Shown here: positions 6,278 to 37,445 of the stretch, piece by piece
Position numbering within the stretch: the stretch's first letter is position 1
How the letters are laid out: each line of letters starts with the position of its first letter
Origin: Bacillota bacterium
GTDB taxonomy: Bacteria > Bacillota > Clostridia > Eubacteriales > Eubacteriaceae
Direction of reading: 5' to 3'
Assembly: GCA_018903255.1 (NCBI GenBank)
Contig: JAHIQT010000060.1
Span: forward strand, 1-45,350
DNA: 45,350 nt
Made by a program: the position numbers and the translations under genes
Notes under the pieces: model-generated
Databases searched by the model: none
Seen by the model: only the letters and a program-made list of their open reading frames with translations
What the model was told of the DNA's origin: nothing

Positions 6278-6289
6278 ATGGAGGAAAGA

Positions 6290-8599
6290 ATGAAGCATGG
6301 GAAGAGTTTGTTATCAGGAATTCTGATAACGGTGGTGTTACCAGTAGCATTGATTTTTAGTGTGATAGCTGGGATTGTAATGATGGTGGTCAATCAGAAT
6401 ATTGACCAGTTTTCGCAAATCCAGAACAGTTTGGTATTGATCAATATAATCGGCTTGTTTTTTATTGCAGGCGTGATTGTTTTGGCAATGAAAAAAGTTT
6501 CTAGTCGAATAAACAGCTTGGCTGTGGTTGCTAAGCGTCTGGTAGATGGCGATCTTGAAATCGATTTCGAATCAGAAAATTTCCAGGATCAGTTGGGTGA
6601 AATTTCCGCAGCCCTTTTTGGTATTGCCGAGAATATGCGACTTCAGACAAAAGCAGCAGTTCAGTTGGCTCAGGGTGACCTTTCGACGGAAATAGCGCCA
6701 AGCTCGAATAAGGATGCGTTGGGAAATAGCTTACTAGAAATTCAGTCGTCGATGAAGATGGTTACGGATTATCTGATGTAGCTCCCGGAACTTATCGGAA
6801 AAGATGTAGCGCTCGACAAAATCCTTGAAGCCAAAATGACGGGTGACTATCAAAAGGGTATCGAACAGGTCAACCAGGCGATTCAGACGGTGATAGACAA
6901 GCGTGACTTTTTTCAGGCGATTCTTGATGCAATGCCCTACCGGATTACGGTGGTTGACACCAATTTGAAGTGGACATTTATTAATAAAACCCTTCAAGAC
7001 CTGAGAGAGGCTGCCGGCAGAGAAGGCAGTCGGGAATCAATTTATGGTGATGATTGCTGCAAGTCAAATCTGGACATGTGTAAGAATGAAGATTGCGGTG
7101 TTAAGGCGTATAAAAAATCGGGCCGCATTGAATTCCCCTTTGAGTATCGCGGCGGTCATTATCGCATGGATACGACACCGATTATTGATAAACAAGGCCA
7201 GACCATCGGCTATGTCGAAACCTCATTTAATACCACTGCTACGATGAGTGTTAGTAAGTATTCAGAAATTGAGATCAACCGACTGGCTGAAAATTTAAGA
7301 CGCCTATCTGCCGGTAATCTCGATTTTGATATCGATATCCAGGCACCGGGCGAGCATACCGGTGAGGTTTATCAACAGTTTAAAGCGATTGAATTAAATC
7401 TCCGCGAAGTCAAAGATGCCATCGATAACCTGATTAGTGATGCCATCATCCTGACCACAGCGGCCATGCAGGGAGACCTCGAAGTTCGTGCTGACGAAAG
7501 CAAATTCAGCGGCTCCTGGCAGGAGCTGATCAGTGGAATGAATGGCATTCTTGGGGTTATGTCAAAGCCGATGGAAGAGGTCGCAAATGTGATGGATGCC
7601 ATCGCCAACGGTAACTTAAATGCAACGGTTGATGGCTATTATCAGGGCAGCTTTGATGTCTTAAAACAGGCTGTCAATGAAATGGGTAACCACTTTAAAA
7701 CAATTGTCACAGAAATTTCAATGGTTACTGGAGAAATCAGTAACGGCAATCTTAATTTAGACAAAGTCAGCTCCTTTGGTGGCGATTTCAACGTGATTTC
7801 GGATGCGCTCAATACCATCATTGCAACCTTGAACGCCTTGCTGGGCGATATTAATCAAGCAGCTGAACAGGTCAATGCCGGGGCTAACCAGGTATCCGAC
7901 AGCAGCCAGGCGCTGGCTCAGGGATCCACTGAACAGGCCAGCTCGATTCAGGAACTGACCGCCTCGATTACCGAAATAGCCGATCAGACCAAAAACAATG
8001 CCGTCAATGCCAACAAGGCTAGACAACTGGCTACTGATGTGATGGGCAATGCCGACAAAGGGAACCATCAGATGACCGAAATGCAGCAGTCGATGGTTGA
8101 AATTAATAAATCATCGGAAGACATTTCCAAGATCATCAAGGTGATTGACGATATTGCTTTCCAAACCAATATTCTGGCTCTTAACGCCGCGGTCGAAGCC
8201 GCCCGAGCTGGACAACACGGCAAAGGTTTTGCCGTCGTAGCCGAAGAGGTCCGTACCCTGGCCGCCCGTAGTGCCGACGCTGCCAAAGAAACGACTGGCT
8301 TAATTGAAGGCTCAATCAGCAAGGTTGCCGAAGGTACAAAAATTGCTGATGAAACAGCCAGTGCCCTGGATGAAATCGTCGGGGGGATTGCCAAGGTCAA
8401 TGATTTGATCGGCAACATCGCTACCGCCTCAAATGAACAGGCCACTGGGATTGCCCAGATTAATATGGGGGTCGAACAGGTTGCCCAGGTTGTCCAGCAA
8501 AACTCGGCAACTGCCGAACAGAGTGCCGCTGCTAGTGAAGAACTTTCGGGTCAATCGATTTTGTTAAAACAGATGATCGATCAGTTTCAGCTGCGTTAA
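6290..8599 (+). CDS. Methyl-accepting chemotaxis protein (2 TM, HAMP-like, Cys-rich PAS, MCP signalling domain) interrupted by an in-frame TAG at 6779-6781
   Basis: ORFs 6278-6781 and 6836-8599 are in the same frame, separated only by TAG plus 18 sense codons ([18 protein letters not shown]). Start 6290 preceded by GGAGGA. C-terminus carries [40 protein letters not shown]. Confidence 0.9.
6779..6781 (+). other. In-frame amber (TAG) codon inside the chemoreceptor
   Basis: Codons ...CTG ATG TAG CTC CCG GAA...; no frame change across it. Confidence 0.95.
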
Positions 8600-10617: not shown

Positions 10618-11993
10618 ATGCCGGTCAATTCATTTGAAGATTACCCGATGTCCTGGAGACCGACGCTAAATGATAAGGTTAAACCGCTTTATCTGTCGCT
10701 GGCTCACCAGTTGGAGCAGGACATTAAAGCGGGACATCTGCTGCCCGGAACTAAACTGCCGCCTCAGCGGGAACTGGCAGATTTTCTCGATATTAACGTC
10801 AGCACCGTGTCCAAAGCCTGTAAAGTTTGTGAGTTAAAAGGCCTTCTCAGTGCCACGGTCGGTAGTGGCACCTTTGTATCCTTTGATGCGCTGGCAAATG
10901 CTTACCTATTGCCGGATGATAAACCACGAAACTTGATTGAATTGGGAGCAGTTTTTCCGGATACCGCCACTTTTGAACCGTTAATCGGTTGTTTAAAAGA
11001 AATGCTAAACGAAGCGGATGCCGATAAACTGTTTAATTACAGCCGACCCAACGCCGATATCTGGTTAAAGGATACTGCGGTTAAGCTAATGGAAAAAGGT
11101 GGCTTCAGTCCGGGATCGGCGAGTATTCTGTTTTCTAACGGCGGCCAAAATGCGATCACGGCCATTCTTGCCGGGCTGTGCCGTCACGGCGATAAAATTG
11201 GAGCCGATCCCCACACCTATTCCGGGCTTAAAACGACCGCTTCGATGTTAGGAATCCAGCTAACCCCGATCCGTCATCGTGACGGAGAAATGGATGATGA
11301 AGCACTGCTTGATGCTTGTCGTAATGAAAATATCAAGGGTATTTATCTAATCACAACCCCACCACCCATACCATCTCTACTGAGCGGCGCAGGGCTTTGG
11401 CCGAAATTGCCAGCGACCAGGATATCTTTATCATCGAAGACGGTGCCTACCATTTGCTTAGTCAAAATGCCCAGCCAGCGGTGGCCTCTTTTGCTCCAGA
11501 CCATACCATCTATATTGCCAGTATGTCAAAAACTTTGGCTCCTGGCTTACGCATGGCCTATCTGTCAGTGCCTCAGGCTTATCGAAAGCCGGTTTCGAAA
11601 GCCCTGTATAATCTAAACATATCGGTGTCGCCGTTAATGGCAGTGCTGGCGGCCCGGGTCATCGTTTCTGGACAGTTGGATCAATTTATAAAAAGTCACC
11701 AGCACAATGCCAGACAGCGCAATAAACTAGTCAATCGCTACTTACGGGACTACACATGTCATGGCGATGAAACGGGAATATTTCGTTGGCTGGAGTTGCC
11801 GGGAACCATTAGCGGATCAGCCTTTGAAACGCTGGCAATGGAAAAGGGGGTTCGGGTTTACGGCGCTGAGCGATTTACGGTCGGAAATAACTTACCCAGC
11901 CGGGCTGTTCGGATGTCTGTCTGTGCTCCGGAAACCTTGACCGAACTTGAACAAGCACTGTTAATTTTAAAAAACCTCCTCGATCAGTTGTAA
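10618..11993 (+). pseudogene. MocR-type GntR/aminotransferase regulator, disrupted by frameshift near 11352-11365
   Basis: N-terminal GntR wHTH (LPPQRELADFLDINVSTVSKACKVCELKGLL) in frame 1 to about 11352; aminotransferase part NPTTHTISTERRRALAEIASDQDIFIIEDGAYH in frame 3, including SMSKTLAPGLRMAYL. Confidence 0.85.
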
Positions 11994-26201: not shown

Positions 26202-28097
26202 ATGAGTCTCAAAATGAGCAACCTGCTGGATGTCGAAAAATACCTGCTGCTGGAGCTGGTTTATTTTCATTTACCGACACCCTACAAAAATCAGATTAGC
26301 CGGGAAAGCCCGATCAAACTGGACGAATACATTGACCTGGTTGAGCGCTGTGGCTATTCGATTTATCCCGGTTTTATCAGTCGGTCAGCCCATGGCTGCC
26401 TCTACAAAAAACGGCGCCAGGCGCATTTTAAGCGGATTTATGCGGCTAGCGATAATCTCGCAGATGTGCTGATTACCGGCTATATTAATGACAATTATGG
26501 TCCCTACGGCAACACTGGCAACAAAAATAAAACCAGCCTAGTCGGGCTCGCCCTGGAGGATCATGACAATAATGGGGCAGTCGTTTTTAGCGGTTGTGAA
26601 CAAATGGATCTGTCCAGTACGGTGCTGGACTGGGGAGACTGTTTACTGGCGTCATTAGGCGTGGTAACCAGCCACCATCACAAGGCGATGGCTTTTTATG
26701 ACCGCTACATGGCTGGGATTGGGGGTGAGCGTAATATTCTCGGCCACTCCAAAGGCGGCAATCTGGCCACCTACGTGTATATCAACCGCTTGGAGCAAAA
26801 CACCCATGCCTATTGTGTCAACGCCCAGCCCTATTGCTGGTATACCATGACGGACACGCAGAAGGAAGCCCTAAAGACAGATCGGTTTGAATATATTGTC
26901 CATGCCAATGACCCCACCCGCAAGGCCAGCTATGTCTCTTACATCAGCCGTACCGCCCCGCTTAATCGCTACGCGACCCGCCGTTTTATCGATATTCACG
27001 GTTTTGCCGAGGTGAACTTTGACGCCTTTGGCAACCTCGAAGGCACCCGGATCATCAGGGAAACCGTCAGCCAACTGAAATCGCGGTTTTTCAATGACTA
27101 TGCCGCCGAAAAGCGGCTGACCCATGAAGCGTGTATCGCCGGTTTTGTCGAAAAGCTCAATGAGATCACTTCGCTACCGCGGCTCTTTAGTACCGTCCTG
27201 GATGAAATCCTACTGGTGACTGAGGCAGGGGGAGCGATCATCTGGCTCCGCGACGCAGACGACCGCGGCGCCTATATTTATCCGCTGATGATTAAGAGTC
27301 CCGGGGCGCAAGATCTGTATCAGCTAAAGTTGCGGCCAGGACAGGGCATTGCGGCGCGTTGTGTCTTTGAAGGGTTACCCCTCTATATCAAGGATACAAG
27401 GCAATACCGGTTACCAGTTGAAAGCCGCAACCAGAAGCTCGGTCTGACGATCAGCTCAGAAATAGCGGTGCCCCTGGGAATTGACGAAGCCGATGTTTTT
27501 GGCGCCCTGGAACTGGTTAATAAACGCGAGGGAATTTTTTCACTGGAAGATTTTGCCCTGGTCAATGAGATGACCCTATTGATGCTGGATACCTTTAAAA
27601 AATCCGGTCAGTCGCTCGACGATTACCGGGATTTTTCGCTGCTGCAGATTCGTAAGGGCGGGAAGTCAACCTTTGCGGTGGAAAAGAACGGATATATGGA
27701 AAAAAGCTTTGCATCGCAAACTGATAAGAAGGCTTTTCTTAAAAAAATATCGGGTCTGTCTTTGGAGCCCAATGAACGCCTCATTTTTAACCGAATTACC
27801 TTTACCCCCGACAAGCAGGACCAGCTTAAGCGCCTGCGCAAACAAGAGTATGCGATGATCTTTGAGAATCCGCACTTGCGCTATGCCAAAATTCGGGTCA
27901 ATGCGGTGCTAATCGGGCTACTGCTGCAGCTTCGCGAGAACCGGATAAATCTCGATCGGGTAGCTAAAATGATCGGTCTTGATGATAAACTCAAAAGCCC
28001 GATCAAAGACCTCAGCGATGCCGAATACATCCGCTTGGAATACGGTATGGCGCGGATCCGACGGCCCAAACTGATCATCGTCAACACCCCACCCTAG
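26202..28097 (+). CDS. DUF2974/Mbeg1-like lipase-fold + GAF + degenerate ABC-ATPase-like protein, ORF interrupted by in-frame TAG; likely natural end 28214
   Basis: Lipase-like nucleophile elbow LGHSKGGNLATY; GAF-like region about 27150-27600; C-terminal IKDLSDAEYIRLEYGMARIRRPKLIIVNTPP resembling LSGGE...PKLLILDEPT. Confidence 0.8.
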   Translation: MSLKMSNLLDVEKYLLLELVYFHLPTPYKNQISRESPIKLDEYIDLVERCGYSIYPGFISRSAHGCLYKKRRQAHFKRIYAASDNLADVLITGYINDNYGPYGNTGNKNKTSLVGLALEDHDNNGAVVFSGCEQMDLSSTVLDWGDCLLASLGVVTSHHHKAMAFYDRYMAGIGGERNILGHSKGGNLATYVYINRLEQNTHAYCVNAQPYCWYTMTDTQKEALKTDRFEYIVHANDPTRKASYVSYISRTAPLNRYATRRFIDIHGFAEVNFDAFGNLEGTRIIRETVSQLKSRFFNDYAAEKRLTHEACIAGFVEKLNEITSLPRLFSTVLDEILLVTEAGGAIIWLRDADDRGAYIYPLMIKSPGAQDLYQLKLRPGQGIAARCVFEGLPLYIKDTRQYRLPVESRNQKLGLTISSEIAVPLGIDEADVFGALELVNKREGIFSLEDFALVNEMTLLMLDTFKKSGQSLDDYRDFSLLQIRKGGKSTFAVEKNGYMEKSFASQTDKKAFLKKISGLSLEPNERLIFNRITFTPDKQDQLKRLRKQEYAMIFENPHLRYAKIRVNAVLIGLLLQLRENRINLDRVAKMIGLDDKLKSPIKDLSDAEYIRLEYGMARIRRPKLIIVNTPP

Positions 28098-28214
28098 GGA
28101 CTCCGCCCTGCCCTTTATCGGGTTTTGTGTGACCGACTCAAAAAAGACAGCCAAAAGAAAGCCGCTACGGTGGTTGTATTAAGAAACAATAATGAAGAAA
28201 GAGGTAAGCAATGA
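28095..28214 (+). other. In-frame TAG followed by 38-codon same-frame extension ending in TGA
   Basis: TAG GLRPALYRVLCDRLKKDSQKKAATVVVLRNNNEERGKQ TGA; continues the ABC D-loop pattern (PT-x-GLD); TGA 28212-28214 overlaps ATG 28211 of the next gene as ATGA. Confidence 0.85.
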
Positions 28215-37020: not shown

Positions 37021-37445
37021 GTCAGAAGCATAAAGCAATAGAAATAGCAGACGATTTAAAAAGGGCAGATGAAATAAAAGTTTGCTGCACCACCTGTCCC
37101 CAGGAATGCGTGATTACGGTTCAGCTAAAAAGGGGCGTTTTGGATAGAGTGGCGGGAGAAGGCTGTAAGCGGGGTAAAAAGTTTGCCCAAAAGGAGATGA
37201 CCACACCAGAAAGAACATTAACCAGTACAGTTATGGTGACATGTGGCGGTAAGGCGGCTCTCTTGCCAGTAAAAACGGCTGCCCCGATCCCCAAAAAAGC
37301 CATGACCCTAGCCATGGACGTGATCCGTAAAACAAAGCTTATCGGGCCGTGTCAGATGGGGGATGTAGTGATTGCCAATATCTGCGGCACCGGGGTAGAT
37401 GTGGTGGCTTGTCGAAGTATTAAGGAGGAAAATCATGCGTGTTAA
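37017..37445 (+). CDS. DUF1667 Cys-rich protein
   Basis: CCTTCPQECVITVQ...GEGCKRGKKFAQKE...PVKTAAPIPK; ATGA overlap. Confidence 0.88.
   Translation: MSQKHKAIEIADDLKRADEIKVCCTTCPQECVITVQLKRGVLDRVAGEGCKRGKKFAQKEMTTPERTLTSTVMVTCGGKAALLPVKTAAPIPKKAMTLAMDVIRKTKLIGPCQMGDVVIANICGTGVDVVACRSIKEENHAC

Follow-up and report, generated by a model that had tools for sequence, protein, structure and literature searches.

The interrupted gene and its neighbours

The window, i.e., the whole 45,350-nucleotide stretch of DNA that was analysed, belongs to an Acetobacterium MAG. It contains an open reading frame starting at ATG 26202, in which 631 codons are followed by an in-frame TAG (28095-28097) at codon 632. 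After the TAG, the same frame reads GLRPALYRVLCDRLKKDSQKKAATVVVLRNNNEERGKQ (38 aa) and then ends at TGA 28212-28214, which shares the motif ATGA with the start codon of a HAD-like ORF at 28211. A previous sequence-only reading of the window had described the TAG, the continuation in the same frame, the TGA and the ATGA overlap, and all four were located where it had placed them. The features of the locus are the following:

26202..28097, + strand: present ORF of 631 aa, with a weak Mbeg1-like alpha/beta-hydrolase region, a GAF domain and a truncated, degenerate BceA-like ABC nucleotide-binding domain (ORF and profile evidence)
28095..28097, + strand: in-frame TAG at codon 632, in this genome only, three of its four closest congeners having CAG (orthologue alignment)
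28098..28211, + strand: putative former C-terminal 38 codons, which encode the final helix and strand of the ABC-like domain as well as a variable tail
28212..28214, + strand: TGA that is probably the ancestral stop and forms ATGA with the following start codon
28211..28684, + strand: HAD-like hydrolase ORF of 157 aa, with weak Pfam matches only, lying 3' of the orthologue in several congeners

Pfam places the GAF domain at residues 323-457, with a marginal Mbeg1-like region and a weak ABC_tran match at the C-terminus. A profile made from ten congener proteins matched BceA at 9.7e-10 over profile positions 492-663, and the PDB matches obtained with Foldseek for the predicted C-terminal domain were ABC nucleotide-binding domains such as LolD, FtsE and BceA, at about 1e-8. 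Use of the fold was restricted to residues 481-664, the model being poor elsewhere in the full-length protein. By fold and profile similarity, the C-terminal domain is a degenerate, BceA-like ABC nucleotide-binding domain. In the predicted model, codon 632 falls in the loop that follows the Walker B strand, and the lost part comprises the last helix (636-651) and the last strand (656-662). The ABC pattern that had been recognised across the UAG by eye is genuine, as the tail can be aligned with ABC domains of known structure and the UAG takes the place of one variable residue after Walker B. No GxxGxGK(S/T) was found in the segment aligned to the Walker A region of BceA, nor was the Asp-Glu pair of Walker B, LIIVNTPP standing where hhhhDE is expected. 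Since these catalytic motifs are not preserved, the ABC-like domain is probably non-catalytic.

Orthologues across codon 632

A full-length orthologue was found in 16 of the 18 other Acetobacterium genomes searched, with 56-83% identity, whereas none was found in the other two. All 16 are open through the codon, none of them carries TAG there, and they end 28-48 residues beyond the site. The residues equivalent to codon 632 are, in the order of the alignment, Q, L, Q, Q, R, K, K, K, R, P, E, K, D, D and A, the remaining orthologue having an L or a gap. Among the four closest relatives, three (G001, G003 and G004) have CAG at the site, within the same ccc-NNG context as the TAG here, and three other orthologues have AAG; thus, a sense codon one substitution away from TAG is present both in near relatives and in others. 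In those relatives in which the HAD gene adjoins, its start lies inside the end of the orthologue or a few bases beyond it, so the ATGA layout is consistent with the ancestral arrangement.

An open run of this kind is not unusual by its length, as at least 30 open codons trail 17-26% of the stops of ORFs of at least 150 codons in the same genome; it is the homology crossing the codon that lifts it above chance expectation. Because this homology continues past the UAG in all 16 orthologues, the comparison argues that the ancestral coding end is at or near TGA 28212-28214. The sequence-only reading had proposed an alignment of homologues across the UAG, and had suggested the TGA as the real end of the protein. 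The alignment, in which every orthologue continues and none ends at the UAG, bears this out for the ancestral end, together with the HAD spacing, but not for the end that would be used today.

Against near relatives, pN/pS is 0.23-0.63 in the tail (28 codons only) and 0.16-0.24 in the body, and residues invariant in the genus are changed at 2 of 11 tail positions versus 10 of 352 body positions (Fisher p 0.047). This genome has Ser at position 650, where all ten congener proteins compared have an invariant Cys. Fast-evolving tails are also seen in a few other congeners. The figures lean weakly towards relaxed constraint on the tail, 28 codons being too short to prove it.

UAG in this genome and other lesions of the window

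Release factor 1 (prfA) is intact, with a 545-bit match and no internal stop. In the assembled genome, which is 83% complete, neither PylS (TIGR02367; best match of 25 bits, in a 642-aa frame, against a cut-off of 178) nor PylD (best match of 24.8 bits, the cut-off being 150) was found. Both are present in one of the 19 genomes of the genus, G016, where they lie about 2 kb apart on contig C74; this Pyl-encoding genome has GCC at the equivalent of codon 632. No in-frame TAG was found in any of the eight MttB-family matches of the genome studied here. The MttB-family genes on its contigs C52 and C28 (G000) have a TAA within the matched frame or come in two pieces, and are possibly further broken genes of the MAG. 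The tRNA genes found number 38, with normal Gln tRNAs (TTG and CTG) among those read by ARAGORN. No CUA anticodon occurs among the tRNAs read by ARAGORN, and none was added by a pattern search that required a T-loop after a CUA anticodon, the matches of which were resolved to tRNA-Arg, tRNA-Leu or non-tRNA sequence; a non-canonical tRNA-Pyl might evade both RF00005 and this pattern. As the MAG is 83% complete, and a suppressor tRNA or a Pyl cassette could lie in an unassembled gap, the absence of UAG-decoding genes is strong evidence, although not absolute.

Over 914 kb of the genome, in-frame extensions of at least 60 codons follow 30 of 175 TAG stops, compared with 30 of 412 TAA and 11 of 169 TGA stops. 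A coding filter left 18 TAG cases with at least 30 codons; a start codon lies within 9 codons in all 18, and many of them have the arrangement TAGGAG...ATG. The excess was rejected as evidence of readthrough, the extensions being mostly the next genes in the same frame, with the TAG often overlapping a Shine-Dalgarno site. The same-frame TAGGAG...ATG arrangement occurs at 12 of 127 TAG, 4 of 333 TAA and 1 of 124 TGA stops, the simple pattern itself favouring TAG. Examples of a TAG overlapping the Shine-Dalgarno site of the next gene are found in L116 at 16696, in L123 at 4015 and 19239, and in L121 at 17287.

When premature stops were counted against orthologues over 85 kb, the only well-supported TAGs were those at 6779 and 28095. 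The TAG at 37396 directly precedes an aldolase start and was excluded from the count. This codon (37396-37398) adjoins the start codon (ATG) of an ORF for a class II aldolase, with TGG (W) in the frames of three congeners, and is probably upstream of the true start of the aldolase.

The TAG at 6779-6781 breaks a chemotaxis receptor (HAMP, MCP signal domain; 6278-8599) at codon 168. The equivalent codon is sense, often Q, in 11 reference proteins, and the congener copies are open with Q, M, K, S, I or D; this TAG is an event of the same kind as that at 28095. A third gene of the window, a GntR/aminotransferase (MocR-like) gene at 10618-11993, is split near 11345 by a 10-nt deletion, and is whole in four congeners (462-473 aa). 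There are thus three independent lesions in the about 38 kb of the window that are comparable with relatives. In the other ~47 kb compared with the same filter, no lesion was found except for a set of matches with multiple TGAs to one reference ORF, which probably reflects a reference frame that is not genuine. Outside the window, a chemotaxis receptor on L052 is interrupted by a TAA where homologues vary in residue. This mixture of lesion types points to mutation or imperfect assembly rather than to UAG-specific decoding.

Origin and meaning of the stop

In our opinion, the locus is probably best explained by an amber mutation that arose recently in this lineage, in a gene that is probably non-essential. 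Codon 632 would have become TAG by a nonsense substitution in this lineage, the simplest path being one C-to-T transition from CAG (Gln). RF1 would terminate at the TAG, and in the resulting product of 631 aa the ABC-like domain, degenerate to begin with, would lack its last helix and strand. In the 38 downstream codons the former C-terminus would survive as a fossil, which can still be recognised since the event is recent, and the affected gene would be of a non-essential, sensory or regulatory type. Non-essentiality is suggested by the type of gene and by the two genomes of the genus in which no orthologue was found. The ancestral codon, in vivo termination and the presence of the base in the actual population are inferred; judging from the sequence, present-day translation most probably stops after residue 631. 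As the stop is unique to this MAG and no UAG-reading machinery was found, we take it for an ordinary truncating mutation, or else an assembly error, and not for a recoded stop.

The main rival is the assembly error, i.e., a wrong consensus base in a MAG whose organism has an intact gene. In favour of it, the MAG is fragmented (216 contigs, 83% complete), and three lesions fall in about 38 kb of the window, with practically none in the other ~47 kb. Nevertheless, the 10-nt deletion cannot be put down to a homopolymer error, and genuine mutation also gives clean single transitions, so we consider this explanation rather unlikely.

Two further explanations keep the full-length protein. Low-level or functional readthrough of an ordinary UAG would be in keeping with a tail that is still in frame and homologous, and in-frame stops retained in constrained bacterial genes have been reported, with readthrough argued for them (Belinky et al. 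2021, PMC7918605). That large-scale case is based on stops common to two or more species, whereas the TAG at 28095 is common to none of the 16 orthologues, and the genome-wide TAG extension signal is accounted for by neighbouring genes; we regard readthrough as very improbable. Even less credible is that this organism decodes UAG as pyrrolysine or with a suppressor tRNA. A Pyl system does exist in the genus, in G016, and one window holds two in-frame UAGs, but PylS, PylD and a CUA tRNA were not found, the MttB-family matches lack UAG, RF1 is intact, neither of the UAG-interrupted genes is a methylamine methyltransferase, and the owner of the Pyl genes has GCC at the site. We likewise give hardly any credence to a suppressor, encoded by sequence missing from the assembly, that decodes UAG at useful frequency and leaves both unrelated sensory-type genes of the window full length. 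That UAG is read as sense here, as the sequence-only reading implied, finds no backing in the 16 orthologues free of UAG, in the missing decoding machinery, in the intact RF1 or in the other unrelated gene-breaking lesions nearby.

The event is an ordinary one. It resembles bacterial lineage-specific amber mutations or incipient pseudogenes in the one-base path from the sense codon of near relatives, the stop present in no orthologue and the lesions nearby, and differs from them in that the truncation removes no more than the last 5-6% of the protein, which may thus retain part of its function. With pyrrolysine recoding (MtmB/MtbB/MttB with PylS, PylBCD and tRNA-Pyl) it shares the UAG codon and a searched genus member that encodes Pyl, whereas here the gene is no methyltransferase, the codon is not conserved, and neither PylS, PylD nor a CUA tRNA was found. 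The conserved in-frame stops (Belinky et al. 2021, PMC7918605) show the same homologous continuation past the stop, although here the stop is in no other species and the tail pN/pS is that given above for 28 codons.

Taken alone, the case is of little importance. It shows that an in-frame amber with genuine downstream homology can mimic recoding, and that the matter can be settled quickly by checking the orthologues at the codon, RF1, the Pyl genes, CUA tRNAs and the presence of mixed lesion types nearby. Moreover, TAG stops that overlap the Shine-Dalgarno site of the next gene yield a false genome-wide readthrough signal.
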